Assembly (NCBI RefSeq): GCF_035658495.1
Contig: NZ_CP141945.1
Span: 1,756,725-1,820,724 of the forward strand
Direction: 5' to 3'
Source: Novosphingobium sp. RL4
GTDB lineage: Bacteria; Pseudomonadota; Alphaproteobacteria; Sphingomonadales; Sphingomonadaceae
DNA: 64,000 nt
Positions 8,633 to 24,686 of this stretch are shown in pieces. Numbering within the stretch: the first letter of the stretch is position 1; each line of letters starts with the position of its first letter. Made by a program: the position numbers and the translations under genes. The notes beneath the pieces were generated by a model. The model had not been told where the DNA came from. It searched no databases and saw nothing but the letters and a program-made list of their open reading frames with translations.

Positions 8633-8647
8633 GCGATACAGTATCGC
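8633..8647. promoter_or_regulatory. TetR-type operator, copy 1 (perfect palindrome)
   Basis: GCGATAC-A-GTATCGC is a perfect 7-1-7 inverted repeat, 87 bp upstream of the GH106 start. It sits just downstream of a minus-strand TTGACA at 8668-8673, where a bound repressor would block transcription. The same sequence stands before the TonB receptor gene next to the TetR gene. Confidence 0.7.
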
Positions 8648-8835: not shown

Positions 8836-9156
8836 ATGACGACGATTATCGTTGTGGGCGCGTCCGGAGAGGAAAGAGCCCTGGAGGCGAGGCCGGGGCA
8901 AACCGTCATGGAAATCATCCGGGATGCCGGGTTCGATGAACTGCTGGCGCTGTGCGGGGGCTGTTGCTCCTGCGCGACCTGCCACGTCCATGTCGAACAT
9001 GTGCAGGGGACGAAGGCCCTCGATCCCATGAGCGATGATGAAAGCGATCTGCTGGATTCGTCGAGCCACCGGAATGAGCGCTCGCGCCTCTCGTGTCAGT
9101 TGCAGGTCACCGATGCGCTCGATGGCCTGCGCGTGAGGATCGCCCCCGAAGACTGA
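8836..9156 (+). CDS. 2Fe-2S ferredoxin (P450 redox partner)
   Basis: A 106-residue adrenodoxin/putidaredoxin-type ferredoxin that passes electrons to a class I cytochrome P450 in the cytosol. The cluster ligands are Cys40, Cys46, Cys49 (C-x5-C-x2-C within LCGGCCSCATCHVHV) and Cys87 (SRLSCQ). Two extra cysteines at 43 and 44 crowd the binding loop. The gene lies 59 bp before the P450 gene on the same strand, so they almost certainly form an operon. No ferredoxin reductase gene is present in the window, so a reductase must be supplied from elsewhere. Its promoter carries an operator-like palindrome. Confidence 0.92.
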   Translation: MTTIIVVGASGEERALEARPGQTVMEIIRDAGFDELLALCGGCCSCATCHVHVEHVQGTKALDPMSDDESDLLDSSSHRNERSRLSCQLQVTDALDGLRVRIAPED

Positions 9157-9215: not shown

Positions 9216-10793
9216 ATGACTGAACTGGCCGATCGGGACTATTTCACCGACCATGAAATCCTTGTCGATCCCTACGCCTATTTCGAGGCCGTGCGCGGGA
9301 AGGGCGGGATCTACAGACCCAAGGGCAAGGATTACCTGATCGTCACGGGGTTCGAGGAGACCCTCGAAATCATGCGCAATTCCGAGGATTTCTCGGCGAT
9401 CATCGGGCTTCAGGGCGCCTCGGCGCCCTTGCCGTTCACACCCCGGGGCTGCGATATCACCGCCGAGATCGAGGCGCACCGCGAGGCTTTCCACGGCGGC
9501 GACCTGCTCGTCAACCTGGACGACAATGCCCATCTTCAGTTGCGGTCGCTGGTCAACCGCCTGTTCACGCCTTCGCGCCTGAAGGCGAACGAGGCATTCA
9601 TCCAGGCCTTCTCCGACGAACTGGCGCGCGATGCGGTGGCGAACGGCAGTGTCGAACTGGTCCGGGCGATCGCGACCCCGTTCGTCACGCTGGTCATTGC
9701 CGATCTTCTGGGTATCCCCGCCGAGGATCGCCAGCGCTTCATCGAGATCATCGAGAACGCGCCGCCCCCCGGAAATCTGGACGGCGAACTCGATCTTGAC
9801 GCCGAGGACCATCCTTTCGTGATCATGGGCGGCTACTTCGCCCAATACGTTTCCGATCGCCGCGCCAATCCGACCGAGGACATCCTTTCCGAGCTGGCGA
9901 ACGCCCGTTACCCCGATGGGACTCTTCCGGAAGAGATGGCCATCGTCAAACTGGGCATGTTCATGTTCGGGGCGGGGCAGGACACCAGCGCCAAGCTGCT
10001 GGGCAATGCGATGCGCTTCATAGTCGATCAGCCCGGCCTTCAGGACCGGCTCCGTGCCGACCCCGCGCTGATCCCGGCCCTGATCGAGGAAGTGCTGCGG
10101 CTGGAAGGATCCACCAAGCAGACCGCGCGCCTGGCGCGCAAGGACACGAAGATCGGCGATCTCGAGGTTCCTGCCGGAACGAAGATCATGCTGGCGATCG
10201 CGGCGGCCAATCGCGATCCGGCGCGTTGGGAAGATCCCCAGGAATTCAGGCTAAATCGCCCGAAGATCAGGGAGCATGTCGCATTCGGGCGGAGCGCGCA
10301 TACCTGTGCGGGCGCTCCACTGGCGCGTGTCGAGGTGCGGATCATTCTCGAGAAGCTGCTCAGGTACACGTCGGATATCGACCTCGATCCCGCGGTTCAT
10401 GGGCCGCGCGGTGCGCGAAAGCTCGACTTCGAGCCGAGCTTCATCATTCGCGGGCTGGCGGAACTGCATCTGAAACTGACCCCGGCAGACGGCGTCGATC
10501 TCAACGCGGCGCAGCCTTCGATCCTCGGGGAGACCCCTGCGGTCGAGGCGTCGCCGTCACCGGTCGCTCCGGCGGGTTACTCCACGGCCCGGACCAGACT
10601 GGCAGTGCTGCTCAAGGACGAGGCAGCCAAGGCGGTGCTCGATGCGCATTTTCCGGGGATCACGGCAGACAAGCGGATCGGCATGGCGAAATCGATGACG
10701 CTGCGCGCCATCCAGAAGTTCGCGCCCGGCCAGTTTACCAACGAAGCGCTGGATGCCGTTGACCTCGACCTGGCGGCACTGCCGACCGGCTGA
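9216..10793 (+). CDS. Cytochrome P450 with an extra C-terminal domain
   Basis: A bacterial class I P450 fused to an unusual tail, 525 residues in all. The P450 core covers about residues 1-430: the I-helix oxygen motif FMFGAGQDTS, the ExxR motif in EEVLRLEGS, and the heme loop FGRSAHTCAG with the thiolate ligand Cys364. The core is normal in length. A Pro/Ala-rich linker (EASPSPVAPAG) then leads to a helical domain at residues 455-525 (DNA 10578-10790). That domain aligns without gaps to the exported 109-residue protein encoded at 20224-20553 (31 of 69 identities counted by hand; the best block is MAKSMTLRAIQKF against MARGMTLRAIQQY). The ferredoxin gene is just upstream and a hairpin terminator just downstream. 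The substrate is unknown; context suggests the aglycone of a plant glycoside. Confidence 0.9.
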   Translation: MTELADRDYFTDHEILVDPYAYFEAVRGKGGIYRPKGKDYLIVTGFEETLEIMRNSEDFSAIIGLQGASAPLPFTPRGCDITAEIEAHREAFHGGDLLVNLDDNAHLQLRSLVNRLFTPSRLKANEAFIQAFSDELARDAVANGSVELVRAIATPFVTLVIADLLGIPAEDRQRFIEIIENAPPPGNLDGELDLDAEDHPFVIMGGYFAQYVSDRRANPTEDILSELANARYPDGTLPEEMAIVKLGMFMFGAGQDTSAKLLGNAMRFIVDQPGLQDRLRADPALIPALIEEVLRLEGSTKQTARLARKDTKIGDLEVPAGTKIMLAIAAANRDPARWEDPQEFRLNRPKIREHVAFGRSAHTCAGAPLARVEVRIILEKLLRYTSDIDLDPAVHGPRGARKLDFEPSFIIRGLAELHLKLTPADGVDLNAAQPSILGETPAVEASPSPVAPAGYSTARTRLAVLLKDEAAKAVLDAHFPGITADKRIGMAKSMTLRAIQKFAPGQFTNEALDAVDLDLAALPTG

Positions 10794-10801
10794 TGCACCG
10801 T

Positions 10802-10838
10802 TTCCCTTCGCCTCGCCGGACGCACGGGGCGAAGGGAA
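10802..10838 (+). terminator. Hairpin terminator after the P450 gene
   Basis: A perfect 11-bp stem, TTCCCTTCGCC (10802-10812) and GGCGAAGGGAA (10828-10838), lies 9 bp beyond the P450 stop codon. No T tract follows. Confidence 0.55.
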
Positions 10839-10839
10839 T

Positions 10840-10870
10840 GGTCAATCCAATTTATGAAAACAGATTGACC
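10840..10870. promoter_or_regulatory. Inverted repeat in the TonB receptor promoter
   Basis: GGTCAATC (10840-10847) and GATTGACC (10863-10870) form a perfect 8-bp inverted repeat around a 15-nt AT-rich spacer, directly upstream of the GCGATAC palindrome. TTGACC in the right arm could also serve as a -35 element. It may be a second regulator's site. Confidence 0.35.
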
Positions 10871-10872
10871 AA

Positions 10873-10889
10873 TGCGATACAGTATCGCA
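10873..10889. promoter_or_regulatory. TetR-type operator, copy 3 (perfect 17-mer)
   Basis: TGCGATACAGTATCGCA is a perfect palindrome and the best copy in the window. It lies 41 bp upstream of the receptor start codon, beside AT-rich promoter sequence (TAATAT at 10899-10904). The TetR gene lies just beyond this receptor gene. Confidence 0.7.
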
Positions 10890-10929
10890 CGAAATGCGTA
10901 ATATAAAAAACAGAAGGGAAGGGGATTCG

Positions 10930-13434
10930 ATGCGTAGGGAACGGGCTCTCACGCTCGCGGGCGCCAGCCTGCTTGCAATGTCAACGCCGGCACTTGCCCG
11001 GCAACAGACCGAACCGGCGGCAACGGGCGAGGCGAATGCAGCGCTGTCGCTGACCAATGAGATCATCGTCCAGGCCCGCCGTCGCGACGAGAGCCTGCAG
11101 GACGTGCCGCTTGTCGTGAACGCCGTGACGGCCGACACGATAGACAAGCTGAACATTCGCAGTTTCACGGATATCGGCTCAGTCGTCCCCGGCCTTCAAC
11201 TGACGCCCAATGCCAATGGCATCGGCACGTCGTCATCGATCCGAGGCGTCAATCACGACGTGAATGTCAGTGCCGAAAACGGCACCATCCAGTACTATCG
11301 CAACGATGCCCCGGTCCCGTCGAGTTTCGTTTTCCAGACGATGTACGATGTCGGCCAGATCGAGGTCCTGCGGGGGCCGCAAGGTACTCTGCGCGGCCGG
11401 TCTACGCCTTCGGGTTCCATCACGGCAACCACCAGGCTGCCGGATCTCGTCGAGCCGGGCGGTTATGTTTCCGGTACATTCGGATCGGGATCGGCGGCCA
11501 ACATCAACGGTGCCCTGAACATTCCGGTGATAGGCGACATGCTGGGCGTTCGCGTGGCCGGACTGCACAAGTTCGACCGGCTGAACCGCGTCAGCAGCAT
11601 CAACAGCGATGTGAAGCCGCGCAGCGAAACCAATGCGATCCGCGCGACCGTTCGCTTCGAGCCGACCCAATGGCTACGCTTCGGCTTTCTCTATGAGGGA
11701 ATGCAGAACGATGCCTTGCGTTTCGACCAGGTGCGTTCGGTAGCGGCGTTCAATCCCGATTACACCCCATCGGCCGGCGCACCGGACTACGGCGACATCG
11801 GGATAGGCGATTATCTTTCGGTTCAATCCCGGCCGAGCACTGTTTCGCAGAAATTCCGGTTCTACAACTGGAACGCCGAGGCCGACATTCTCGGCCAGCG
11901 CCTGGTCTACGTAGGATCGCGCACGGCGCAGCATTACCGCAGCTTCGGGGTGCGCGACCTCGCCAATTTCTTCCCCGACCTTGCGATCGGGCAGGAGGCC
12001 GACACGCGCGGCACGACGTCCAGCCACGAGGTTCGCCTGCAGAACCTCGACCGGATCGGGGGCCTGTTCGACTATGTCGTGGGCTATTTCCAATATGCGG
12101 TTCCGTCCCGCACGATCCTGAACGAGAGCAGCATCACGCAGTTGCGGCTGGCAGGCCCCGGCATTCCGATTGCGCCGCCCAGCGTGACGGACACGCCGAT
12201 CTATCTTCCCAAAGGCATGCCGAAGGAGGAATCGTTCTTCGGGAACGTGACGCTTCATCTGGGCGATGCGACCGAACTGTCCGGAGGCCTGCGCCGAATC
12301 CACTTCACGGACTTCCGCGATGGCCTGTTTATCGGCTGCACCCCGCAGTTGTACGAGGCCGGATCGTGTACGCGCCAGAACGGCACGCAGTCGGACGTGA
12401 AGGAGAACACCACGATCTACAGCGCGAGCATCAAGCACCGCTTCACGCCGGGGCTCATGGTCTATGCGGCGACCGGCAGTTCCTGGCGTCCGCCTGTCGT
12501 CGCGATCGGCAATTTCACGCATGCCGATTACACGCCGAACGAAGTCGCCCATGTCGCGCTGCCGCCGGAAAGCTCGAAGTCCTATGAGATCGGCGTGAAA
12601 TCGGACTGGTTCGATCACAAGCTGACATTCAACCTCACGGCCTATCACCAGAAATACAAGAACTACCCCTACCGTTCGGGCGGGGCAGGCATTGCTTATA
12701 TCAACATCAATTCGGCCGGTGCGCCCACTATCGGCAACTTCAACTTCGTGAGCGCGGTGCCGGTGAAGGTGAACGGGGTGGAGGCGGAGCTCGCTTTCAC
12801 TCCAACCTCGCAGTTCAGTGTCGGCGCTACCGTCAATTATGCCCGGAGCACGATAGGCAATGCGCTGCTGGCCTGTACCGACGCGCTGAACAACCAGACG
12901 GGTGCCGTCGGTTCGGACGGACTTCCCGACAGCGTGACCCCGACGCTCGCGCAGATGCAGCAGGCTTACGGCGCCGAGCGCGTGGCGGTGTGTCCGGGCG
13001 GCGGACAAAGCGCGACATTCCAGCCGCAGTGGACCGGCGTTCTGCGCGCGGAGTACAACCAGCCGGTCGGACATGACATGGACGCCTATGTGCGCGGGCT
13101 GCTGAGCTGGCGAGGCAAGTCGAAGACCGATCCCAACAACCGCTTCGACGATGTCGGGGCATATGGCCTGTTCAACCTCTATGGCGGTTTGCGCGCGGCC
13201 GATGGAGGCTGGGAAGTCACCGTCTATGCCAAGAACCTGTTCGATACGAACAAGCTGCTGACCCAGGATGACCTGGCCCAGTTCACGGCTGTGACCGACG
13301 TCTATCTGGCGCCGCCGGCCTTCAGCGTTACGGGCATCGGATCCACCGTCTACAACAGCCGCTACACGGGCGTGACCGTTACCGCGCCGCGCGAATTCGG
13401 CGTGACGTTCCGCGTGGCGTTCGGTTCCCGCTGA
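10930..13434 (+). CDS. TonB-dependent outer-membrane receptor (catabolic island)
   Basis: An 834-residue receptor that should bring the island's substrate across the outer membrane using TonB energy. A signal peptide (LTLAGASLLAMSTPALA) is followed by a TonB-box-like region (NEIIVQARRRDESLQDVPL), the plug domain (VPGLQLTPNANGIGTSSSIRGV) and a beta-barrel to the C-terminal phenylalanine-containing strand (GVTFRVAFGSR). The plug opening (RRRDESLQDVP) is of the kind common in sphingomonad catabolic receptors. I chose the ATG at 10930 because AGGGAAGGGG precedes it; an in-frame ATG at 10894 has no such site. The gene has a perfect operator in its promoter, and a terminator hairpin separates it from the convergent TetR gene. 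Confidence 0.9.
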   Translation: MRRERALTLAGASLLAMSTPALARQQTEPAATGEANAALSLTNEIIVQARRRDESLQDVPLVVNAVTADTIDKLNIRSFTDIGSVVPGLQLTPNANGIGTSSSIRGVNHDVNVSAENGTIQYYRNDAPVPSSFVFQTMYDVGQIEVLRGPQGTLRGRSTPSGSITATTRLPDLVEPGGYVSGTFGSGSAANINGALNIPVIGDMLGVRVAGLHKFDRLNRVSSINSDVKPRSETNAIRATVRFEPTQWLRFGFLYEGMQNDALRFDQVRSVAAFNPDYTPSAGAPDYGDIGIGDYLSVQSRPSTVSQKFRFYNWNAEADILGQRLVYVGSRTAQHYRSFGVRDLANFFPDLAIGQEADTRGTTSSHEVRLQNLDRIGGLFDYVVGYFQYAVPSRTILNESSITQLRLAGPGIPIAPPSVTDTPIYLPKGMPKEESFFGNVTLHLGDATELSGGLRRIHFTDFRDGLFIGCTPQLYEAGSCTRQNGTQSDVKENTTIYSASIKHRFTPGLMVYAATGSSWRPPVVAIGNFTHADYTPNEVAHVALPPESSKSYEIGVKSDWFDHKLTFNLTAYHQKYKNYPYRSGGAGIAYININSAGAPTIGNFNFVSAVPVKVNGVEAELAFTPTSQFSVGATVNYARSTIGNALLACTDALNNQTGAVGSDGLPDSVTPTLAQMQQAYGAERVAVCPGGGQSATFQPQWTGVLRAEYNQPVGHDMDAYVRGLLSWRGKSKTDPNNRFDDVGAYGLFNLYGGLRAADGGWEVTVYAKNLFDTNKLLTQDDLAQFTAVTDVYLAPPAFSVTGIGSTVYNSRYTGVTVTAPREFGVTFRVAFGSR

Positions 13435-13445
13435 GGATATCTGCT

Positions 13446-13474
13446 CCCGAAGTCCCGACCTGCGGGACTTCGGG
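13446..13474. terminator. Bidirectional hairpin terminator
   Basis: CCCGAAGTCCCG (13446-13457) and CGGGACTTCGGG (13463-13474) form a perfect 12-bp stem with a 5-nt loop between the convergent receptor and TetR genes. Confidence 0.65.
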
Positions 13475-13504
13475 GAGGTTTGGCGATGCCGCTTCGAAAC
13501 GGCG

Positions 13505-14128
13505 TCAGTCGGGAGCCATGATCGAGGTGGAAAGCAGCCGGAACAGGATCCTGGCCACTTCCGGCACACTATAGGTCCCCTCCGGCTGGCCGACCCACCA
13601 TGCCAGCGTTTCGGCAATCAGGGAGGCTGCGCATATGGTGCCCAGATCCGGCGGCAGCCACGCATTAAGCGGCGTTTCGTTCTGCGCGACGATCCTTGAT
13701 ACGCGTAGCCATTCCTCGCGCATGGCGCTGCCCGCACCGCCGTTGAGGAGGATCGACCAGAGCGAACGGTGCTCATCGACATATGAGCAAAGCGCCCGGA
13801 AACCCGCCTCGTAGTCTTCCGCGTCGCGGATGGACAAGGTCAACTGGTTGAGGTGCGCGATCTCGTCCTTGGCGATGGCGTCGAGCAGGCCTTCCTTGGT
13901 CTGATGGTGGCGGAAGAATGTGGCGTAGTGAACTTGCGCTTCGGCGCAAATGTCACGGACGGTGATCTGATCGAACGGCTTTCGCTGCAGGAGCGCGAGC
14001 ATGGCCTCCTGCAAGGCGCGCGCGGATCGCAAGGCGCGGGCATGCTTAGACCTCGATGACGCCAGTGGCTCGATTTTATGCGATACAGCGTCGCTTTTCT
14101 TACGATTCGGTTTGTCGGTATCGGCCAT
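13505..14128 (-). CDS. TetR/AcrR family transcriptional regulator
   Basis: A 207-residue TetR-type repressor. The N-terminal helix-turn-helix runs over about residues 30-75 (FDQITVRDICAEAQVHYATF, then FRHHQTKEGLLDAIA); the rest is the variable ligand-binding helical domain. It carries about 25 residues ahead of the usual start of the fold, and the codons for that stretch contain a degenerate copy of the operator (14080-14094). Its own synthesis may therefore be controlled from within the gene, or translation may start later than annotated. I infer that it represses the GH106, ferredoxin-P450 and receptor genes, because a matching palindrome stands at each of those promoters. Confidence 0.88.
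   Translation of the reverse strand: MADTDKPNRKKSDAVSHKIEPLASSRSKHARALRSARALQEAMLALLQRKPFDQITVRDICAEAQVHYATFFRHHQTKEGLLDAIAKDEIAHLNQLTLSIRDAEDYEAGFRALCSYVDEHRSLWSILLNGGAGSAMREEWLRVSRIVAQNETPLNAWLPPDLGTICAASLIAETLAWWVGQPEGTYSVPEVARILFRLLSTSIMAPD
14080..14094. promoter_or_regulatory. TetR-type operator, copy 4 (degenerate, intragenic)
   Basis: GCGATACAGCGTCGC matches GCGATACAGTATCGC at 13 of 15 positions. It lies within the first codons of the TetR open frame as annotated, which suits autoregulation. Confidence 0.45.
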
Positions 14129-14209
14129 CGCCTCGTCTTTGACGCAAAAGCGACTGGCTGCGCAAGCGAACAGCGAAAAGGCGGGCCGGTCGATGGTGCC
14201 CGAAACGGC

Positions 14210-14926
14210 TCATGAGGTATCTTTGGTCAGGCGATAGAAGCAGTAGTCCGTCCCGTCGCGGCCATGCTCGACGAGTATCATCGCATCGATGCCGAGCTTC
14301 AACGCATCGAACGTTCCCAGGACGACATCCTTCCTGTGCTGGATCGTATGCGGATCATTGGCGCGGGGGTGCCGGAGCAGGCGCCGTGCAAACCGCCGCA
14401 GGCCGAGCAGTCTGCCCACGATCAGCCGGCGAAAGCCGTTCGGGCCGTGCAACAGCAACTCACCGATGGGAACCTGATGGCGGATGCCCACGATCAGGTG
14501 GCGTTTCGAAACCCGCCGGAGTTCCCGCAGAACTTCCTCAAGCCCGCGCGCGTCCATCCAGTTGAGGAAACGGATGCTCAGGGCGCAGTCGTAAGTGCCG
14601 TCCGCATCCGGGATGGCGCGAATGTCGGCAAGCTCGAGCGTGCAGTCCAGTCCGTCCGCATCGTCCAGCTTGACGCGTGCCGCTCTCAGCATGTCCGGCG
14701 AAATGTCGCGCCCGACCACCTTGAAGCCGCGTTCGTGATAGAGCTTGAGAAAGCGCCCGGTCCCCACCGGCATGTCGGTAACAGTGGCTCCGCTCCGGAC
14801 GGCGCGCAAAAGCTCGCGGACGGCGCTATCCTCGCTTACCCATTTGGCTGTGGGTGCCCGGCGGGCATCGTATCCTGTGGCGGTGGCACCGGTATATGCG
14901 CTGCTCAGTGTCTGAAAATCCATCAA
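14210..14926 (-). CDS. SAM-dependent class I methyltransferase
   Basis: A 238-residue Rossmann-fold methyltransferase. Motif I is VTDMPVGTGRFL near residue 50, with the acidic end of beta-2 at VVGRDISPDML, a beta-4 region DCALSIRFLNWMD and a post-motif LRRVSKRHLIVGI. The start overlaps the stop of the upstream P-loop gene by 4 bp (ATGA), so the two are translationally coupled. The substrate is not recognisable. The pair may belong to cell-envelope or lipid modification rather than to the glycosidase island, since neither gene carries the operator palindrome. Confidence 0.8.
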   Translation of the reverse strand: MMDFQTLSSAYTGATATGYDARRAPTAKWVSEDSAVRELLRAVRSGATVTDMPVGTGRFLKLYHERGFKVVGRDISPDMLRAARVKLDDADGLDCTLELADIRAIPDADGTYDCALSIRFLNWMDARGLEEVLRELRRVSKRHLIVGIRHQVPIGELLLHGPNGFRRLIVGRLLGLRRFARRLLRHPRANDPHTIQHRKDVVLGTFDALKLGIDAMILVEHGRDGTDYCFYRLTKDTS

Positions 14927-15765
14927 CCGATCTCCTGCTGAGGAATTCTGATCCGCAAGAATTGTGCGACCTGTTCGGCGGCGTCGGATAACTGATCCTC
15001 GCCGTTCACCTCGAGGACGGGAACGCCGCGCCGCCGCAAATGCTCGGCGGCGAGAGCGAAGGCTTCGGCGGCGTCAACCGTGGCGGTATGAAGCTCGTTG
15101 TCGTCGAGACCAGCATGGGCGCTGATCCTGCGCCCCCTGTTGCGCAGACGTTCGACTATGACGCCGGGGCGCGCCGCCACGAGCACGACCGCACCGGGCT
15201 TCGGTACGGAGGAAAAGTAGGCCTCCCGCAATGACGGCGGGCTGGCCCAGCCTTTCTGGACGAGCGCATCCTGTTGGAGGATCTGCACGTCGGCGGGCAG
15301 GCGGTTCCAGAGATGGAGGTCGCGCAGCTGCTCCAGCATGATCGGCAGTCTGGCGAACCGGGCAAAGGCATCGCCGAAGCCGGTTCGCGCCATCTCGATG
15401 CAACACTCCAGGAAGGCCCCGTGGATATGCAGCATCTGGCGGAACGAGTCCTCCGAAGAGATCGCTGCCAGCCGCCTTGCAAAAACATCCCCCACGCGTG
15501 GCAACTGGAACGCGGAAAGGTAGGAGATGCGCCGGATCGGGCTGACCTGATCCAGGCTTGCCGTGGCGGCCAGCAGCCTGCCTTCCTGCACTGTGCGATA
15601 GATGGCCTGCCGCCCAAGACGCGCGCGTGCGGCATGGTAGATCGCGGACTTTCCCACGCCGGGCGGGCCGACGAATTCGACCTGCCGCTCGGCGCCGGGG
15701 AATGCCGGATCGTGTGCAACGGGGGGAATCGCCAATTGGGGGGTGGGCAGGTTCATCGCCTTCAC
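14923..15765 (-). CDS. P-loop NTPase, kinase-like
   Basis: A 280-residue protein with a clear Walker A motif (VEFVGPPGVGKSAIY near residue 32). The downstream region resembles nucleotide or small-molecule kinases: VVLVAARPGVIVERLRNRGR is typical of a lid or acceptor arginine region, and a final VPVLEVNGED strand follows. It is the first gene of a coupled pair with a methyltransferase. Either the GTG at 15765 (GAGG 5 nt upstream) or the ATG three codons later could be the start. Function unknown; a sugar or lipid kinase is possible. Confidence 0.65.
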   Translation of the reverse strand: MKAMNLPTPQLAIPPVAHDPAFPGAERQVEFVGPPGVGKSAIYHAARARLGRQAIYRTVQEGRLLAATASLDQVSPIRRISYLSAFQLPRVGDVFARRLAAISSEDSFRQMLHIHGAFLECCIEMARTGFGDAFARFARLPIMLEQLRDLHLWNRLPADVQILQQDALVQKGWASPPSLREAYFSSVPKPGAVVLVAARPGVIVERLRNRGRRISAHAGLDDNELHTATVDAAEAFALAAEHLRRRGVPVLEVNGEDQLSDAAEQVAQFLRIRIPQQEIG

Positions 15766-16225
15766 ATCCTCAGCGCTGAAGATTTCGCCCGCGGCTGTGC
15801 CCGGGCTCCTCGATAACCTGCCTCGCCCCCAAGGAAGATCAACTCAACCAAATTGGTAGAGAATGTGGATGCGGTCAACCCGGCATGGAATTGAGAAATT
15901 CTTATGACAGAAAAGAAAATTCCCGGAGGTACTGAACCGATTAGGGGCCGCTGTTTCGGCCTATATCCATGTTATGGCGAGATTTTTTAATAATGAGGGC
16001 GAAGAAATTATATTGAATTTTTCTTAAGTCGATCCGGAGGTGGCCGATGATTTACGATTCGCCCTCCAGCCTGAACTGGCGCAGAGGGCGATGTGCCCGG
16101 CAATCGCGCTGGGATCCTTCTCTCAGCCCCGGCGTCATGACTTCGAATGTGCCGGCAGCGAGGCATGGGAAACGCCGTCGCTCGAGACATCGAAAACGGC
16201 GTCCCCTGCGCCTGCCGCTTGGTGA
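15766..16225. promoter_or_regulatory. 460-bp AT-richer intergenic region with a candidate promoter
   Basis: No gene is supported here. On the minus strand TTGACC (15875-15880) and CAATTT (15852-15857) with a 17-bp spacer could drive the P-loop/methyltransferase pair. The stretch 15890-16035 is clearly AT-richer than the rest of the window. A frame at 16047 behind GGAGG codes for an arginine-rich, low-quality sequence that runs antisense into the desaturase gene; I do not accept it as a gene. Confidence 0.35.
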
Positions 16226-17035
16226 TCAGTCCGCCAGTTCCGCCGTCACGGGACCCGCCCGTCCGGCGCTTTCGCCTCGGGCCGCGCGCGCGGCGGCGGT
16301 GCGGTCCTTGATGGCTTCGAAATCGCTCTCGTACTTCTTGCGCATGGTGCCGCACAGACGGTCCCATATCGTTGTGTAGCCACCGAAATTGCCCGTGAAA
16401 TAGCGGTGGTGCTGATCGTGGAATGTTGCCGAGATGAACCACTTCGTGGCCCAGGTCCGGTTCCACCAGCGGGGGAGGAACTCGTAGCCGGAGTGGACGT
16501 AGAGCCCCATGATGATGTTCGTTGGCAGGATCAGCGCCATTGTCGCGTCATGGACAGTGAAGGCGGCCAGAAACAGCGGGACGAACCCGCCATTGATGAT
16601 CGATTCCAGCGGGTTGACCGAAAGCGTTGTCAGCAGGTTCGGCGAAGTCGATTTGTGATGGAGCTTGTGGACCCAGCTATAGACCGGTTCCTTGTGCATC
16701 CAGCGATGGAGCCAGTAGAAATAGGTGTCGAACAGGAAGAAGTAGAGCACATATTCCAGCGCGATGGTCCACCATGCCGCCGGTGTCGGATCGAACGTGA
16801 TCCATCCGTGGGTCTTGGCCCAGCCGGTCGCCACGCCGATGATCTTGCCGGATATGGCCAGGGTGACGACGGCAATCAGCGCCTCGTTGCGGAAGATCTT
16901 CCACTTGAAGCCTCTGGGCTGGATCTTGCGTGCCTTGAAGAAGCCTGACGCGATGCCGGCGACTATGCCGGTCACCACGAAAGCCGCCAGCCAGAAATTC
17001 AGGGCCTGTTCGCCGCTGATGAAGGACTTGAACAT
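16226..17035 (-). CDS. Sterol desaturase/fatty acid hydroxylase superfamily protein
   Basis: A 269-residue integral membrane di-iron oxygenase. The histidine clusters of the superfamily are present: HRWMH, HKLHH and, near the C-terminus, HDQHH. At least four membrane segments are visible (for example LNFWLAAFVVTGIVAGIASG near residue 13). The ATG at 17035 follows GAGG at a good distance; a longer frame upstream has no support. Members hydroxylate or desaturate sterols, carotenoids, sphingoid bases or fatty acids. Beside a P450, glycosidases and SDRs, action on a triterpenoid or steroid aglycone is attractive, but hydroxylation of a sphingomonad membrane lipid is equally possible. Confidence 0.85.
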   Translation of the reverse strand: MFKSFISGEQALNFWLAAFVVTGIVAGIASGFFKARKIQPRGFKWKIFRNEALIAVVTLAISGKIIGVATGWAKTHGWITFDPTPAAWWTIALEYVLYFFLFDTYFYWLHRWMHKEPVYSWVHKLHHKSTSPNLLTTLSVNPLESIINGGFVPLFLAAFTVHDATMALILPTNIIMGLYVHSGYEFLPRWWNRTWATKWFISATFHDQHHRYFTGNFGGYTTIWDRLCGTMRKKYESDFEAIKDRTAAARAARGESAGRAGPVTAELAD

Positions 17036-17256
17036 CGGTGCCTCAGGAAAGAACGAGGGCAAAGGCGACGATATGCGCCGCCAGAGCAAAGGGAAGGGCA
17101 TAAGCCGAGCGGCTGGGCATCCGGGTGTTCATGGGTTTCTCCATCTTCGGGTCCGAGGCGGACATGGCCATGTCCGGATGTCAGTTCGCGACTGGCCGGC
17201 AAGCAGGATTACGTTACGGAGGGAATTGCCCCATAAATCTCCCGGAAAACCGGCAT

Positions 17257-17287
17257 TTTGCCAGTTCGCGCATCGCGAACTGGCAAA
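17257..17287. terminator. Perfect 14-bp hairpin after the GH2 gene
   Basis: TTTGCCAGTTCGCG (17257-17270), a 3-nt loop and CGCGAACTGGCAAA (17274-17287) lie 25 bp past the GH2 stop codon. It is most likely a terminator on the minus strand, though no T tract follows. A partial copy (CAGTTCGCGACTGG) lies at 17182-17195 in the desaturase promoter region, so a protein-binding role is possible. The rest of 17036-17311 holds nothing else I can support. Confidence 0.5.
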
Positions 17288-17311
17288 GGCGAACGTGTTT
17301 CGGCTTGGATT

Positions 17312-19810
17312 TCAGGATAAGTCGAAGGCAATTCCACCCTCCGCCAGTCCTTCGCATTTCGCCTTTATGCGCACCCGGCCCGGCTTGCCGCTCCCTCGCA
17401 GGATGAGCAGCGCCTGCCCGCGGTAGCACTCCGCGCTTGACGACTGGAAGGAGCCGGTTGCCTGCGGATTGGCACTGCCGAAAGCGGCCAGGGTTGCCGG
17501 TCCCTCGATCAAAAGATCGATGCGTCGGCGGTCGTCGGGCAGGACACGGCCCTGCGCGTCGGTGATGTCCACCCGCAAGTAGCTGAGGGCATTTCGGGCG
17601 GCTCCGGCTTCGCGGCGTTCCGGCACAACGCGAACGCGCGCGGCAGGGCCCACCGTTTCCAGCACCTTGCGCGCAATCGGCTTGCCGTTGCGATATGCGA
17701 TCGCTTCCAGCTTTCCGGGGGCATAGGGCACCTCGAACTCGGCCCGCCGCCGGTCGGTCGGACCGAGTTCCCGGGAGGCGGCCAGCTTTCCGTCCAGTCG
17801 CAATTCGACCCTGTCTCCGGCGGCGTGAACCCGCACACCGAGCGGGCGCCCCTCGGCGCCGGGCCAGGTCCAGCTCGCCAATTCGTCGGACCAGCCCCAG
17901 CCGGAGACATATTCGAATGTCCCGTCAGGGCCAGGGCGCTGCACCGCCATTTCCAGATCGCTGATGCCCCACACCACATCGCGCGCCAGAGAGGACGCCT
18001 TCTGCTGGCCGATCAGGTCGATGTCGCCGCACCAGGCGTTCACCCAGGGGAAGGAGGGGAGGTAGATCGGATAGTTGCCGTTCTTCAGCCTCGCGTTGGC
18101 GCCGATCCCGGCTTCTCCGAGATAATCCATCGCGGTCCACAGGAATTCGCCAAGGAAGTAGGGCGCCTTCTCCTGCAAGGCCTGATAGTCGTAGACATCG
18201 CGAGCGAAGGTCTCGGAAGCATAGACCACGCGTTCCGGGTGCACGCCCTCCTCGGCCTCGATATCTTCGAGGCGGTAGTTGTAGCCGGGCACGTCGAGAA
18301 ACACGGTCGATGCATTGTCGGTCTTGCCGCCTCTGCCCGCGCGCGCGGTTTCGGGGGCGGCGATCAGTTCAGCGCCAAGAACCCCGTTCAGTCCGGCCGT
18401 GACCGGCCTTGTCGGATCGAGCCGCCTGACGGCATTGGCCAGTTTCCATTGCCACTCCACCCCTTCTTCCGTTGACCGGAACGGGATCTCGTTGCCGATG
18501 CTCCACATGATGACGGACGGGTTGTTCCGGGCCGTGCGGACCATCGCATCGATGACTTCCGACCAGTGTGCCGGGAACTGCTGCGCGAAGTCCTGCGGCT
18601 CCTTGGCGACGTGCCAGGCATCGAACGCTTCCTCGATCAGGTACATGCCGAGCCGGTCGCACGCCTCCCTCAGGCTGCGGGACGCGGGGTTGTGCGAGGA
18701 TCGGATGGCGTTGAAGCCGCGCGCCTTGAGCAGCCGCAGCCGGCGTTCGTCGGCATCGGGAAAGGCACAGGCGCCGAGCAGGCCGTTGTCATGGTGGAGG
18801 CAGCCGCCCTTGAGCTTCACCTGTTGGCCGTTGACGGTCATGCCGGTCCGCGCGTCGAAGGCTATGATGCGGATGCCGTAAGGCTGGACGATGCGGTCCA
18901 GCACGGAACCGTTCCGGACGAGTTCGGTTTCCAGCGAATAGAGTTCGGGGCTGGCCGCCGACCAGAGGCGAGGGCCGCGAACCTCCAGGGTCTGCCGCAT
19001 CGCTGCCGCAGCAGGAGCGCTGGCTTCGGCGACGACGCGGCCATCCGGTTCGACGAGCCGGGTGCGGAGGATATCGCCGCTTTCCGGAGCGACGACTTCG
19101 CTCGACACATCCACCACCGCACGGCCGTTTTCGAGCTTGCTCGTCCAGGCCGCCACACCCCAGCGGACGAGCCGCGAGGCGGACGGGACAATGTCGAACT
19201 CCACCGAGCGGTAAAGGCCCGAACCTGAGTACCAGCGGCTGTTCCGGCCGAGGTTTCGTACCCGCACGGCCACCACGTTATCGCCGGTGCGGTCCAGGAA
19301 GGGCGTGAGGTCAAGCGCGAACGGGGCATATCCCGCCACGCTGCCGCCAACTTGCCTGCCGTTCAGCCAGACGTCCGTTTCCAGATAGGCCCCGTCGAAG
19401 ACAATCTCGACGCTTGCGCCGGCCGGGTAGGCATCGGCGCGGAAGTGCTTGCGGTACCAGCCTTCGCCGCCATTGGTGAAGCCGGTTGCGGTCTTGCCGA
19501 TCGAGCGTTTGTCGAACGGGCCGATCACGGTGCCGGGAAGTTGTCCCGGCAGGTCCTCCACGCTCCAGTCGTGGGGCAGGTCCACCCGGCGCCAGTCGGT
19601 ATCGTCGAACGCCTTGCTTTGGGCGCCGTCCATCTCACCCAGCCGGAAGCGCCAGTCGTCGTCGAAAGGCTGGCGGCGCCCGCCATGGTTTGCGGGTGCC
19701 GGGCTGCGCGCACTTGCCGCAGGGGCTGCGAAGGCCGCGCCGCTTACGGCGGTTGCGGCGGCTATGGCCAGCACGTTGCGCCTGCCGGTGGTAAGGAAGC
19801 CGCGTTCCAT
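17312..19810 (-). CDS. GH2 family glycosidase (beta-galactosidase-like), Tat-exported
   Basis: An 832-residue GH2 enzyme. A Tat-like signal (TTGRRNVLAIAAATAVSGAA) precedes the sugar-binding jelly-roll domain (residues about 45-210, with FDDTDWRRVDLPHDWSVED), an immunoglobulin-like domain and the TIM barrel with SSHNPAS and SIGNE, whose Glu441 is the expected acid/base. The nucleophile is probably Glu533 in YASETF. A C-terminal beta region follows from about residue 620. Such enzymes usually remove beta-galactose, beta-glucuronic acid or related sugars. The ATG overlaps the upstream gene's stop (TGATG), so translation is coupled to the small protein upstream. It adds a third exported glycosidase to the region. 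Confidence 0.88.
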   Translation of the reverse strand: MERGFLTTGRRNVLAIAAATAVSGAAFAAPAASARSPAPANHGGRRQPFDDDWRFRLGEMDGAQSKAFDDTDWRRVDLPHDWSVEDLPGQLPGTVIGPFDKRSIGKTATGFTNGGEGWYRKHFRADAYPAGASVEIVFDGAYLETDVWLNGRQVGGSVAGYAPFALDLTPFLDRTGDNVVAVRVRNLGRNSRWYSGSGLYRSVEFDIVPSASRLVRWGVAAWTSKLENGRAVVDVSSEVVAPESGDILRTRLVEPDGRVVAEASAPAAAAMRQTLEVRGPRLWSAASPELYSLETELVRNGSVLDRIVQPYGIRIIAFDARTGMTVNGQQVKLKGGCLHHDNGLLGACAFPDADERRLRLLKARGFNAIRSSHNPASRSLREACDRLGMYLIEEAFDAWHVAKEPQDFAQQFPAHWSEVIDAMVRTARNNPSVIMWSIGNEIPFRSTEEGVEWQWKLANAVRRLDPTRPVTAGLNGVLGAELIAAPETARAGRGGKTDNASTVFLDVPGYNYRLEDIEAEEGVHPERVVYASETFARDVYDYQALQEKAPYFLGEFLWTAMDYLGEAGIGANARLKNGNYPIYLPSFPWVNAWCGDIDLIGQQKASSLARDVVWGISDLEMAVQRPGPDGTFEYVSGWGWSDELASWTWPGAEGRPLGVRVHAAGDRVELRLDGKLAASRELGPTDRRRAEFEVPYAPGKLEAIAYRNGKPIARKVLETVGPAARVRVVPERREAGAARNALSYLRVDITDAQGRVLPDDRRRIDLLIEGPATLAAFGSANPQATGSFQSSSAECYRGQALLILRGSGKPGRVRIKAKCEGLAEGGIAFDLS

Positions 19811-20094
19811 CACCGCTCCCCCAATGTCTTGAGCTTAACATCTACACGGTCGAGCATGTCGGGTTTGACCACCCCGAACTGCACGAGCGACCGGAACGAG
19901 AAGTTGCCGAGGTGCGGCTTTATCATGTCGTTGCCGATGCGCGCCTCGACGTTGGGGATTTCCGCCAGGATGATGGCCCAGGCTTCCGGGATCGCCTTCA
20001 GATCGGCGATGGCGGTGTCTTTCGTGCCGAGCAAACGCGGGAGCCGGCGCGGCGGCGTGAACTGCTGTGCGGGCGGATAGAGCGGAGCGTCCAT
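19810..20094 (-). CDS. Small helical protein coupled to the GH2 gene
   Basis: A 94-residue protein without a signal peptide. After a Pro/Arg-rich start it reads TKDTAIADLKAIPEAWAIIL and ends GNFSFRSLVQFGVVKPDMLD then RVDVKLKTLGER. Spacing and helical pattern resemble the exported protein encoded next to it and the P450 tail (compare TQDTDIGTLLDDPEA and MTLRAIQQY), which suggests a diverged copy of the same domain. Its stop codon overlaps the GH2 start. The ATG at 20094 has a modest AAGGTCAGGA site upstream. The function is unknown; a partner or maturation factor for the glycosidase is one guess. Confidence 0.65.
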   Translation of the reverse strand: MDAPLYPPAQQFTPPRRLPRLLGTKDTAIADLKAIPEAWAIILAEIPNVEARIGNDMIKPHLGNFSFRSLVQFGVVKPDMLDRVDVKLKTLGER

Positions 20095-20223
20095 GGTCGT
20101 TGGTCCTGACCTTTCTTGCGGAATGCACGGTTTGGGAAAGCGGCGCGCGCGGGAGCCGGCGCGCAAGCGCGGCACGCCGACCTGGGCGGCGTGGACAAAA
20201 TGGCCGGAAGCCTTGTCAGCCCA

Positions 20224-20553
20224 TCACTTTTTCGGAGGTAGCTTCGCGAGATCGGCGTCGATCGCCGCCAGTTTGGCGTCGGTGATCTGGTCTGCCGAAT
20301 ACTGCTGGATGGCGCGCAATGTCATGCCGCGCGCCATGGCGATCTGGTCGCTCTTGACGATTTCGGGAAGGTACTTCTCAAGAACGGTCCTGGCTTCGGG
20401 ATCGTCGAGAAGGGTTCCGATATCGGTGTCTTGTGTCGTGTATCGCGGAGTTGCGGCCTTTGCCGTGGCGATGGTCGCCGCCGCCGGGGCCTGTGCATTC
20501 GCGCCAGACGCGGCGGTGGCGGCAAGCAGTGCGATAAACAGCTGAGTGCGCAT
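20224..20553 (-). CDS. Exported small protein, stand-alone copy of the P450 tail domain
   Basis: A 109-residue protein with a clear signal peptide (MRTQLFIALLAATAASGANA) and then an Ala/Thr-rich linker. Residues 38-109 form a compact helical domain: TQDTDIGTLLDDPEARTVLE, MARGMTLRAIQQY, then TDAKLAAIDADLAKLPPKK. The domain aligns without gaps to the last 71 residues of the P450. It is the first gene of a probable operon with the small protein and the GH2 gene, and is divergent from a TonB receptor. The function is unknown. Periplasmic location, in contrast to the cytosolic P450, argues for a general binding or interaction role rather than a redox one. Confidence 0.7.
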   Translation of the reverse strand: MRTQLFIALLAATAASGANAQAPAAATIATAKAATPRYTTQDTDIGTLLDDPEARTVLEKYLPEIVKSDQIAMARGMTLRAIQQYSADQITDAKLAAIDADLAKLPPKK

Positions 20554-20858: not shown

Positions 20859-23540
20859 ATGCGTTTCAACAAGCGTGCGCTGGCATCGTCAGCGTCGACC
20901 CTTCTGCTCGCCTGCGCGAGCGTTTCTGCAATGGCCCAATCCGCGCCCCAGGCCGCGCCAACGCCGGCTCCGGCGCCTTCCGACGCTTCTGCCGAGACGG
21001 GACCGGACGGCGTGAACGGTGAGGATATCGTCGTTACCGGCAGCTATGCGCGCAGCCTGAGCGCGGCGACCGAAGCCAAGCGCAATGCCGCTTACGGCGT
21101 CGACTCGATCAATTCGACCGATATCGGCAAGTTCCCCACCCAGAACGTGGCCGAAGCGCTTCAGCTGGTGACGGGCGTGGCCATCACCCGCCCGCGCGGC
21201 GAGGGCATGTATGTCAGCGTTCGCGGCCTTGGCCCGCAGTTCCAGAACACGCTGCTGAACGGCAGCCCGGTGGCGGTAAACGAAGTGATCGAGAACGGCG
21301 GCGCCGCCGGTCGCCAGTTCCGCTTCGAGATGCTCCCGGCCGAGTTCACCTCCAGCATCGACGTCGTCAAGACGCCGACCCCCGACATGACCGAGGGCGC
21401 GCTGGGCGGCAACATCAACGTCAAGACCTTCGAGCCGTTCGACGTCGGCACCAAGACCACGCTCAACCTGCGCGGCACCTACACCACCCAGACCGACAAG
21501 GTTAAGCCGAACGCCACCCTCATCACGAGCTGGGTCAACAAGGACGATACCTTCGGCGTGCTCGTCGGCGGCCAGTACTGGGCCAAGGACGTCCGCAACG
21601 ACCGCTTCATGAACTTCGGCTGGTACAAGGACCGCTTCGCTTCCGCACTGGGCGAAGGCTACTACCTGCCGACCCGCACCCGCCCGACCGTGGAGACGGA
21701 AAAGCGCGAGCGCATCTCCGGCATGCTTTCCATGCAGTGGCGCCCCAACCCGGAGCTGGAAACGACGCTCAACGTCCTCGCCACCCGTCTGGACGTGGCC
21801 TATGACGAGTTCGGCCTCGACATCTTCCCGGACGATACCAGCGTGGCCGGGCACCGGCCGACCATCGACCCCGACAGCGTGGTGCTGGACGGCGATACCG
21901 TGGTGAAGGCGACGATCAACGACGTGCGCTTCATGGCCTCGCGCGAGTACAGCCTCAACCGTCACGATCTCATCAATGTCGGCCTGCGCCAGACCTGGAA
22001 CCACGATGCCTGGCACGTTTCGGGCAATGTGAACTGGTCCTTCGCGCACAGCTATCACCCGAGCTACGATGTCGGCACCGTGCGCAGCCGTGCGATGTTC
22101 TTCGCGCCGCTGACTTATGACGCGACCGGCGGCTACAAGAACGTGCCCACCTTCAACACCACGGTCGATGCCACCAACCCGGCGAACTACCAGCTCTACC
22201 AGTTCAACATCGCGCCCAAGAACAGCAAGGACTGGAACTTCTACACGCGCGCCGACGTGGCGCACGATTTCGAAGGCTTCATCTCGAAGCTGGCCGTTGG
22301 CGGCGAATATCAGTTCCGCAAGCGCGACTATTCCCGCCGCGACTTCCTGGTGAATCCGGCAGCGGGCACCCCGCTCTCCAGCCTCGGTTCCGGCGCTTAT
22401 GAGCAACTGCCCTTCGACAACTATCTCGAAGGTCTCGGCGGCAATATCCCGCGCAGCTTCCTGGTGCCGGTAACGCAGGCCTATCTCGACGCGTTCTTCA
22501 CTTCGGATGTCGAGAATTCGGCGCTTACCGCTTCGGATCTCGCCGCATCGTTCCGCACCACCGAAAAGATCTGGAGCGCTTACGCCCGTGCGGATTACGC
22601 CTTCACGCTGGGTTCGATCCCGATCACCGGCAACATCGGCGCGCGTTACGTGCACACCGATCAGGTGGCGAGCGGCAACTTGCGGTCCGGCAGCGTGACC
22701 ACGCCGGTCAGCTACCCCAAGACCTTCAACAACGTCCTGCCCAGCTTCAACTTGCGCGCCGAACTGTCCGGCAATCTCGTCGGCCGCCTGAGCGCAAGCC
22801 GTGTCCTGACCCGTCCCAACGTGACCGACAGCGCGCCGCGCATCACCGTCTCTACCGATGCTCCCACGGCAAGCGGCGGCAACCCCGATCTCGTGCCGTT
22901 CCTGGCCACGCAGTTCGACGGCTCGCTGGAGTGGTACTTCAACAAGTCGGGCTCGCTGACCGGCGCGGTGTTCTACAAGTCGATGGACGACTACATCACC
23001 CAGCAGAACGTGCCCATCGAGATCCCGGGGCGCGGCACCGTGCAGCTCAGCACGCAGGTCAACGGCGGCGATGCCAAGGTCTACGGTTTCGAGGCGGCCT
23101 ATCATCAGGTCTTCACCTTCCTGCCGCAGCCTTTCGACGGGCTCGGCCTGCAGGCTTCCTACACCCGCACTTCCGTTCAGGCGGACTACACGGCGGGCTC
23201 TCGCACCATCAAGGACGAGATGATCGGCCTTTCGAAGAACAGCTTCAACGTGGTGGGCTTCTACGAAAAGGGGCCGATCTCGACCCGGCTTTCCTACGTC
23301 TGGCGCGACCGTTATCTCTCCGGGACGGGCAGCACCACGCAGGCCCCGACCTACACCGCCGCCTTCGGATCGCTTGACGGTTCGGTGGCCTATCGCCTGA
23401 CCGACAACGTGACGCTGAGCCTGGAGGCGATCAACATCGCCGGCGCGCGTCAGTACACCTACAACGACAGCCCGCTGCGCTTCGGCGAGATCAACGATTA
23501 CGGCACGACGATCCTGTTCGGCGCGCGGGCTGAATTCTGA
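20859..23540 (+). CDS. TonB-dependent receptor (inositol phosphate-type operon)
   Basis: An 893-residue receptor of the large Xanthomonas/Caulobacter type. The signal peptide (ALASSASTLLLACASVSAMA) is followed by EDIVVTGSYARSL, the plug (DIGKFPTQNVAEALQLVTGV, then SVRGLGPQFQNTLLNG) and a barrel ending in TTILFGARAEF. The ATG at 20859 follows GGGGAGC; a TTG seven codons earlier is less likely. The stop codon overlaps the ATG of the PI-PLC-like gene (TGATG), so receptor and enzyme are coupled. The ligand is inferred from the two enzymes downstream, for example phytate breakdown products or glycerophosphoinositol. Confidence 0.9.
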   Translation: MRFNKRALASSASTLLLACASVSAMAQSAPQAAPTPAPAPSDASAETGPDGVNGEDIVVTGSYARSLSAATEAKRNAAYGVDSINSTDIGKFPTQNVAEALQLVTGVAITRPRGEGMYVSVRGLGPQFQNTLLNGSPVAVNEVIENGGAAGRQFRFEMLPAEFTSSIDVVKTPTPDMTEGALGGNINVKTFEPFDVGTKTTLNLRGTYTTQTDKVKPNATLITSWVNKDDTFGVLVGGQYWAKDVRNDRFMNFGWYKDRFASALGEGYYLPTRTRPTVETEKRERISGMLSMQWRPNPELETTLNVLATRLDVAYDEFGLDIFPDDTSVAGHRPTIDPDSVVLDGDTVVKATINDVRFMASREYSLNRHDLINVGLRQTWNHDAWHVSGNVNWSFAHSYHPSYDVGTVRSRAMFFAPLTYDATGGYKNVPTFNTTVDATNPANYQLYQFNIAPKNSKDWNFYTRADVAHDFEGFISKLAVGGEYQFRKRDYSRRDFLVNPAAGTPLSSLGSGAYEQLPFDNYLEGLGGNIPRSFLVPVTQAYLDAFFTSDVENSALTASDLAASFRTTEKIWSAYARADYAFTLGSIPITGNIGARYVHTDQVASGNLRSGSVTTPVSYPKTFNNVLPSFNLRAELSGNLVGRLSASRVLTRPNVTDSAPRITVSTDAPTASGGNPDLVPFLATQFDGSLEWYFNKSGSLTGAVFYKSMDDYITQQNVPIEIPGRGTVQLSTQVNGGDAKVYGFEAAYHQVFTFLPQPFDGLGLQASYTRTSVQADYTAGSRTIKDEMIGLSKNSFNVVGFYEKGPISTRLSYVWRDRYLSGTGSTTQAPTYTAAFGSLDGSVAYRLTDNVTLSLEAINIAGARQYTYNDSPLRFGEINDYGTTILFGARAEF

Positions 23541-24685
23541 TGCGCGGCGCGATTGTTCTGGCCGCCATCGGGCTGGGTCTGGGCGGGGGAGCCATGGCTT
23601 CCCCACCGGCCGCCGGTTCCGGCGCGGCTCCCGCCTCCCAAGCGCCTGCAGCCGCCGACCTGCGAATGAACGACATTCAGGTCGTGGGTTCGCACAACAG
23701 CTTCAAGGCGCGCATTCCGGCGGAAGTGATGGAAGGCATCCGCCAGCGGGACGCGCGTCTCGCCGGAGCGCTGGATTACTACCACCTGCCGCTTGCGGAG
23801 CAGCTCGACGCCGGCGTGCGTCAATTGGAGATCGACATCTTCGCCGACCCCGAAGGCGGGCGATATGCCGATCCCAAGGGAGAGAAGCTGCTGGCGGCAG
23901 GCGGCGCCAGCGGGTTCGACCGGGCAGCCATGCTTAAGCCGGGCTTCAAGGTCCTGCACATTCCCGATGTGGACTACCGTGCCACATGCGTCACCCTGAT
24001 CCGCTGCCTTGGCGAGGTCGATGCATGGTCGCGCGCCCATCCCGGCCATCTGCCGATCATGATCACCATCAATGCCGCCGACACGCCGAATTCGCATGAC
24101 GTGACGGCTCCGTTGCCGCTCGACGATGCGAAGCTGCTCGATGATCTGGACCGGGAAATCCGCAAGGCGCTTCCCGGCCAGCGGCTCATCGCGCCGGACG
24201 AGGTTCGCGGCAAGGCCGGCAGTCTGGCCGAAGCCGTGAAGTCGAAGGGCTGGCCGACCCTGGAGGCTGCGCGCGGGCGGATCTACATCCTGCTCGATGT
24301 GCGTCCGGCCGTTTCCGAGGTCTATCGCCGCGGGCATCCCTCGCTGCGGGGCCGGGCCATGTTCGGCTGGTATCCCGATGGCGAGGCGGAAAGCGCGATC
24401 CAGATCGTGCAGGACCCGGTGGCCGACGGCGCAAGAATCCGCGAATGGGTGAAATCGGGCGTTATCGTGCGCACCCGCAGCGACGCGAACACCGTGGAGG
24501 CGAGGGCGCACGATCTGGCCAAGGCCCACGCCGCCGGGGAAAGCGGGGCGCAGGCCGTCAGCACGGACTATTACCCCGGTGCCCCCGATCCGCTCGGCCT
24601 CGGTTTCTCGGTCACTCTGCCCGGCGGCGTCATGGCGCGCTGCAATCCGGTTCGCGTGGCCGCTTCCTGCACCGTGAAGCCCTGA
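23540..24685 (+). CDS. Ca2+-dependent PI-PLC-like secreted phosphodiesterase
   Basis: A 381-residue exported protein of the bacterial calcium-dependent phosphoinositide phospholipase C type. After a signal peptide the catalytic barrel opens with QVVGSHNSFKA near residue 51 (first catalytic His) and continues with LDAGVRQLEIDIFADPEGG, whose acidic residues would bind calcium. The barrel proceeds to PIMITINAAD and GRIYILLDV and ends in a cysteine-containing tail. It starts inside the receptor's stop codon and is followed after 1 bp by the phosphatase gene. Members cleave the phosphodiester of inositol lipids; the exact substrate here is inferred. Confidence 0.75.
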   Translation: MRGAIVLAAIGLGLGGGAMASPPAAGSGAAPASQAPAAADLRMNDIQVVGSHNSFKARIPAEVMEGIRQRDARLAGALDYYHLPLAEQLDAGVRQLEIDIFADPEGGRYADPKGEKLLAAGGASGFDRAAMLKPGFKVLHIPDVDYRATCVTLIRCLGEVDAWSRAHPGHLPIMITINAADTPNSHDVTAPLPLDDAKLLDDLDREIRKALPGQRLIAPDEVRGKAGSLAEAVKSKGWPTLEAARGRIYILLDVRPAVSEVYRRGHPSLRGRAMFGWYPDGEAESAIQIVQDPVADGARIREWVKSGVIVRTRSDANTVEARAHDLAKAHAAGESGAQAVSTDYYPGAPDPLGLGFSVTLPGGVMARCNPVRVAASCTVKP

Positions 24686-24686
24686 C

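Follow-up and report, generated by a model that had tools for sequence, protein, structure and literature searches.

Why should a cytochrome P450, a small exported protein and a 94-residue protein (p94) encoded next to a GH2 glycosidase carry the same short helical segment? The question is raised by a stretch of 64,000 nucleotides from Novosphingobium sp. RL4 (NCBI RefSeq assembly GCF_035658495.1, contig NZ_CP141945.1, positions 1,756,725 to 1,820,724; hereafter the window). A first-pass annotation, made from the sequence alone, had proposed that the three proteins share one unnamed helical domain of ~70 residues, a common binding or scaffolding module of one catabolic region. The three segments are almost certainly homologous copies of a single module. 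The module has no family name and crosses phyla, and p94 is strictly coupled to its GH2 neighbour.

Homology and fold of the three segments

The segments and the proteins that carry them lie at the following positions of the window.

10578..10784, plus strand: helical module, C-terminal tail of the CYP150-like P450 (residues 455-523), from BLAST against the exported protein
9216-10793, plus strand: P450 gene, 525 residues, core matching CYP150A6
10488..10577, plus strand: variable linker from the P450 core to the module, residues 425-454 (~30)
20236..20442, minus strand: helical module of the exported 109-residue protein, from BLAST, the AlphaFold2 (AF2) model and structural matches
20224-20553, minus strand: gene of the exported 109-residue protein, its start resembling a signal peptide by eye
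19819..20031, minus strand: helical module of p94, after the N-terminal arm MDAPLYPPA of the p94 family
19810-20094, minus strand: p94 gene, 94 residues, no signal peptide seen
17312..19813, minus strand: GH2 enzyme (DUF4982 and Glyco_hydro2_C5 by Pfam) with a twin-arginine N-terminus

Residues 455-523 of the P450 align without a gap with residues 38-106 of the exported protein, with 31 identities in 69 positions, precisely the earlier hand count, and 61.6 bits (E 4e-19, which rules out a chance likeness of amphipathic helices). The score lies 26 standard deviations above those of shuffled sequences and was reached by none of 2000. For p94 pairwise similarity alone is insufficient: its alignments with the other two are weak (E 0.001 and 0.004), their scores being reached by 3 and 13 of 2000 shuffles, and it is the profiles that rule out chance. 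Profile A2, built from 20 rows of the p94 family (83 relatives), was searched against the 5.4-Mb genome translated in all six frames. Beyond p94 itself (9.5e-47) it retrieved the exported protein at 3.1e-4, the tail of the P450 at 4.0e-4 and, at 0.12, a ThuA protein, with no further match up to E 10. The two family profiles align by hhalign at E 2.6e-12 across 66 columns, and a 23-row leave-out profile, built without p94, ThuA or glycosidase rows, recovers the window p94 at E 4.4e-4 per 50,000 sequences. From the other side the outcome is mixed: the narrow profile A3, made of P450 and exported rows, fails to detect the window p94 at thresholds up to E 10, yet in a different genome it picks up two places of the p94 family (7.6e-4 and 0.0012). 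With the combined profile A6 at E<=0.001, the genome of the window holds at least five places: the exported protein, the P450 tail, a second exported copy, p94 and the ThuA protein. A6 comprises 32 rows drawn from the window, from relatives found by protein search and from same-family loci; it includes p94 and ThuA rows and no glycosidase row. Here and below, genome tallies from A3, A6, A7 and the p94 and GH2 searches are lower bounds, part of the first-look candidates having been scored in some genomes.

The motif [MF][TSP][LF][RK]x[LIVM]xx[FYWM] recurs in 90 of 95 P450s, 114 of 120 exported proteins, 59 of 83 p94 relatives and four of eight glycosidase tails, and in none of 83 P450 cores. 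No Pfam or NCBIfam family covers the module in the window proteins. The 32 module rows gave nothing above the curated cut-offs of Pfam (best E 0.026), and 24 rows gave nothing above those of NCBIfam (best 0.0056, a flagellar family). No literature tying these tails together was found in a search that covered few subscription papers and mostly listings, so that its absence is unproven.

In the P450 the tail is a discrete domain, loosely tethered, because the module is conserved while the linker varies. The core (residues 6-424) matches CYP150A6 (6dcd) at E 3.8e-113, the next structure following at 1.6e-52; the label CYP150 thus denotes the closest solved relative along the core and not a formal CYP naming by identity. 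Where CYP150A6 ends, past residue 424, the window protein adds the linker and the module. Across 82 homologues of at least 510 residues, mean identity to the reference cluster closest to the window P450 (P0001) is 68% in the core and 69% in the module against 13% in linker residues 425-453. The 95 P450 homologues were picked via their tails, which biases the identity of the tail upward and leaves the contrast with the linker unbiased. No signal peptide was seen on the P450 by eye.

Structure prediction agrees for the two segments compared. The p94 model has a predicted local distance difference test (pLDDT) score of 93, and its top structural match is the extreme C-terminal domain of the GH3 beta-glucosidase 7ms2. 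The AF2 model of the exported protein has pLDDT 85-90 in ten-residue blocks over residues 41-100, and its best structural rows are GH3 C-terminal domains, again with 7ms2 first. Both are predicted to adopt one fold of ~70 residues and five short helices, that of the GH3 C-terminal module. The single helical domain put forward in the first-pass annotation, p94 included, therefore holds up by profiles that connect the three segments and by predicted folds for two of them.

Hosts of the module beyond the window

The structural match to GH3 enzymes has a counterpart in sequence. Searched against PDB sequences, A6 matches 7ms2 at residues 679-747 (E 1.5e-4), the GH2 glucuronidase 7kgz at 658-731 of 734 (E 0.0046, beside a likely false match at 0.0044) and 8j9f at 711-774 of 780 (E 1.0), in each case close to the C-terminal end of a GH3 or GH2 chain. 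A letter-reversed A6 decoy found no glycosidase among PDB sequences (best 0.024). The A6 matches to PF16 (0.0044), S12 and a GDSL esterase were put down to chance, as each falls within an unrelated protein or fold. Once three glycosidase tails join the profile (A7), 8j9f improves to 5.9e-4 and a flavin mononucleotide (FMN)-type beta-glucuronidase, 6mvf, matches at its last residues (E 0.38).

The same holds for bacterial genomes outside the phylum. In the Acetivibrio genome of locus L078, A6 finds a GH3 tail (6.8e-4) and one other place (0.42). Among 299 Bacillota genomes A7 marks at least seven places in six genomes, one being the seed genome; the six new places, in five genomes, are four GH3 enzymes (L092, L094, L095, L096), a GH2 enzyme with DUF4982 (L093) and a solo protein of 72 residues (L091), and in these the chain runs on for 0 to 22 residues past the match. 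The leave-out profile gives 9.8e-8 for the solo and 4.6e-5 for the GH2 enzyme; four GH3 tails (L078 included) score 0.006, 0.015, 0.017 and 0.1, and L095 only 23. Only one named locus came up when a fragment of a glycosidase tail served as the query.

From profiles and models taken together, the module is identified as the small helical domain that ends GH3 beta-glucosidases (7ms2 of C. thermocellum, ~674-750; PSTG1, 8j9f/9lql, ~676-753), which share with it the sequence profile, the predicted fold and, in four of eight glycosidase tails, the motif. In these enzymes it is fused after an Fn3-like domain, whereas in the window it sits on a P450, is free and exported, or is detached as p94. Less surely, the module also appears to end the FMN-binding GH2 beta-glucuronidases of the gut (Rh3, 7KGZ; 6mvf), whose last ~75 residues match the profile and are among the weakest sequence links. 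The idea of a common module in one catabolic region thus stands as far as the sharing is concerned and fails on its locality, as the module also ends GH3 and some GH2 enzymes in Bacillota.

Within the family, A3 matches at least 31 of 149 genomes, 27 of them with a single match. Of 29 loci taken from other genomes, 26 encode short exported proteins (by eye) and two encode type-B carboxylesterases with a C-terminal module, which bears out the suggested tails on sphingomonad hydrolases; the last, L036 (E 0.0015), was dropped as a partial match within a larger protein. A PQQ-propeller protein (L101) carries an N-terminal module, found at 1.6e-12 with the leave-out profile. ThuA proteins (L007, L061, L062) probably do so too. 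The L007 row had joined A6 on a weak match (E 0.12), and the ThuA proteins are kept as probable only because their scores weaken to between 0.013 and 0.095 without that row and to between 0.019 and 4 when the p94 rows are removed as well. The spread is patchy, with A6 matching at least 13 of 398 genomes of the phylum and A7 at least 6 of 240 of the class.

The module lies at the extreme C-terminus of the P450, the carboxylesterases, the GH3 enzymes and the Bacillota GH2 enzyme, with 0 to 22 residues left after it. The exceptions are p94 and the exported solos, which have no catalytic domain, and the PQQ and ThuA proteins, in which the module is N-terminal. Solos occur near TIM-barrel sugar isomerase-like genes (L002, L066, L074), a GMC oxidoreductase (L074), a molybdenum enzyme (L071), and P450 and Rieske genes (L073). 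At L073 (10004-13388) the exported solo has as neighbours a Rieske ring-hydroxylase and a P450 without the tail, which shares 43% identity with the core of the window P450. Both L061 (2132-6577) and L074 (13484-18311) hold a TIM-barrel sugar isomerase-like gene and a GMC oxidoreductase, and L061 also a Gluconate_2-dh3-type subunit and the ThuA protein with its probable N-terminal module; this gene set resembles 3-keto-glycoside pathways.

p94, its GH2 partner and their neighbourhood

The first-pass annotation had linked p94 to GH2, and the coupling proved tighter than claimed. A p94 search of 397 family genomes found at least eight places in seven genomes, the window included, and in all eight the next gene encodes a GH2 enzyme of ~830 residues; the other seven are 50-62% identical to the window enzyme (GH2 identity was checked by Pfam on six of these and on the window enzyme). 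In the reverse direction, a search from the GH2 enzyme found at least 12 places in 7 of 249 genomes: a module gene lies directly upstream of all seven GH2 genes at 46-100% BLAST identity and of none of the five at 39% or less. The seventh upstream module (L116) is divergent (E 1.2e-4). The stop codon of the module gene overlaps a possible GH2 start codon by 4 bp in nine of nine loci. At the window junction, GTGATG, a GTG start overlaps the p94 stop by four bases, and an ATG start would overlap it by one.

In the same nine loci the GH2 enzyme has twin arginines and a hydrophobic stretch at its N-terminus, and p94 is without such a start as judged by motif and hydropathy. The pair thereby resembles the hitchhiker pairs of twin-arginine translocation (Tat), such as hydrogenase subunits or glucoside 3-dehydrogenase, in that a signal-less gene is coupled to a twin-arginine partner; it differs in that p94 is tiny, lacks a catalytic domain and is a putative rather than an established partner in co-export. 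Twin arginines are also present on four of the five distant GH2 enzymes without p94, the fifth being ambiguous by eye, and therefore Tat export alone does not require p94.

The Bacillota GH2 enzyme L093 has a TIM-barrel and DUF4982 like the window enzyme, is 28% identical to it over part of the barrel, and carries the module fused at its end. Proteins that are fused in one lineage and co-translated neighbours in another are classically taken to act together. For GH2 and the module, the comparison suggests this fused and detached pattern from one fused GH2 enzyme and, less surely, from the glucuronidases.

Further features of the window bear on the setting.

8836..9156, plus strand: 2Fe-2S ferredoxin adjoining the P450 (Pfam Fer2, 6.5e-8)
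3187-4719: GH39 enzyme
13505-14128: TetR gene

Together with a GH106 rhamnosidase and two TonB receptors, the GH39 enzyme and the ferredoxin give the region the look of a locus that breaks down a plant glycoside built on a non-sugar core. In genome G587 (L059) the order of exported module, p94 and GH2 recurs, with GH39 directly before. A perfect palindrome, GCGATACAGTATCGC, occurs at 8633-8647, in the interval from which the GH106 and ferredoxin-P450 genes diverge, and at 10874-10888, before a TonB receptor, and nowhere else in the 5.4-Mb genome; degenerate copies lie at 8763 and 14080. The TetR protein may be the regulator of this palindrome and would then govern a private regulon with the tailed P450 among its members. 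Downstream of the GH2 gene, 16226-17101 encodes a membrane fatty acid hydroxylase family protein. After the second TonB receptor, 23540-25901 encodes a PI-PLC-C1-like phosphodiesterase together with a histidine-acid phosphatase, which may form a set for the uptake of phosphate or phosphoinositides.

Possible roles: gating, assembly or ligand binding

What, then, might such a module do for its hosts? The reading that we prefer, tentatively and by analogy, is a mobile module that gates or recruits substrate and is either fused to the enzyme or supplied separately. The analogy comes from the gut glucuronidases. The available part of PMC8748916 describes the C-terminal domain of the FMN-type enzymes as ~150 residues long, mobile and unresolved in crystals, and that of Rh3 (7KGZ) as critical for triclosan-glucuronide; there the domain is fused, whereas the sphingomonad GH2 module is a separate upstream gene. 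In the accessible text of PMC9377255, the activity of Rh2 on mycophenolate-glucuronide is down eightfold without the C-terminal domain, which in models lies outside the active site and might act as a 'gate'. Among GH3 enzymes, PSTG, which we read as the PSTG1 of 8j9f, hydrolyses the lignan glucoside sesaminol triglucoside, according to the part of PMC3622683 at hand.

Applied to the window, the module would sit beside the active site and seat the bulky non-sugar part of the substrate, the aglycone. It would be delivered in cis where it is tethered, on the P450, the carboxylesterases, GH3 and GH2. In trans, p94 would be translated just ahead of the twin-arginine GH2 enzyme, would bind it in the cytosol, and might leave with it through Tat. 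The exported 109-residue protein would be a free periplasmic form that assists an enzyme encoded alongside it or else binds the substrate. Glycosidases, esterases and the P450 may have aglycones, rather than chemistry, in common; one small domain could then fit enzymes so different because it would help seat bulky aglycones. Gating is extrapolated from published deletions in which the glucuronidase domain removed was larger, and this step may be mistaken; contact of p94 with GH2, co-export and aglycone binding are likewise proposed rather than observed. Aglycone seating accounts poorly for the N-terminal and solo forms.

The main rival, somewhat unlikely in our judgement, is that the module mediates oligomerisation of the enzymes and that p94 is a chaperone-like folding or assembly subunit that keeps the Tat-exported GH2 enzyme competent, with no role towards the substrate. 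Production of p94 just ahead of GH2, with overlapping codons at all nine loci, would suit such a subunit; PSTG is described as a tetramer (PMC3622683), and the available part of PMC6351562 states that C-terminal domains, though other ones, account for the differing quaternary state of some gut glucuronidases. The mobility of the FMN-type domain (PMC8748916) is however unlike a structural interface, as far as that source describes it, and a P450 tail on a variable linker is unlikely to form the core of an oligomer.

It is improbable that the module is in essence a free ligand-binding protein, with the exported solo acting as a periplasmic carrier or buffer of hydrophobic aglycones or glycosides and the fusions capturing substrate without gating. 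The predominance of exported solos among the loci from other genomes would fit, as would their neighbours (sugar isomerase-like, GMC oxidoreductase, molybdenum enzyme, P450 and Rieske genes), but ~70 residues in five short helices leave scant room for a large pocket, and to our knowledge the module has no known ligand.

Of the two functions first proposed, binding stays plausible and scaffolding has become doubtful. A self-associating module that holds the P450, the GH2 enzyme and the exported protein together in a single complex for catabolism would accord with three of the five module places in the genome lying within ~10 kb. One shared complex is nevertheless very improbable because the compartments would differ, the P450 having no signal peptide and the exported protein and GH2 having export-signal-like starts by eye; the single match in most matching family genomes argues in the same direction. 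Membership in the DUF1858/ScdA_N superfamily (the YtfE N-domain), with redox or cluster-related work, was suggested by a fold match of the exported protein and has very little to commend it, given no Pfam match to DUF1858, an hhalign probability of 0.6 percent in a weak test against a five-row DUF1858-like alignment, no cysteine pattern seen in the module, and its absence from the matches listed for the better p94 model, which leaves membership possible.

Returning to the gating module, a wider formulation is unlikely: an exchangeable aglycone-gating unit of ~70 residues, fused or separate, would be common to the glycosidases, esterases, P450s and proteins of sugar oxidation that act in the catabolism of plant glycosides and xenobiotics, with p94 as a detached GH2 gate that reaches the periplasm via its Tat partner. 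Whatever its function, five classes of protein (P450, carboxylesterase, GH2, GH3 and PQQ propeller) and probably a sixth (ThuA), besides the solos, share a module without a Pfam or NCBIfam model. If the gating reading is true, p94 would be a small stand-alone form of the unsolved mobile gate of gut drug-glucuronidases, whose C-terminal domain appears to hold the module and, in the literature as available, affects reactivation of mycophenolate and triclosan conjugates. As a natural detached version with a gene-coupled partner, p94 would make the function of the domain directly testable by adding or omitting one small protein, and the tailed P450 would tell whether the module works outside hydrolases.

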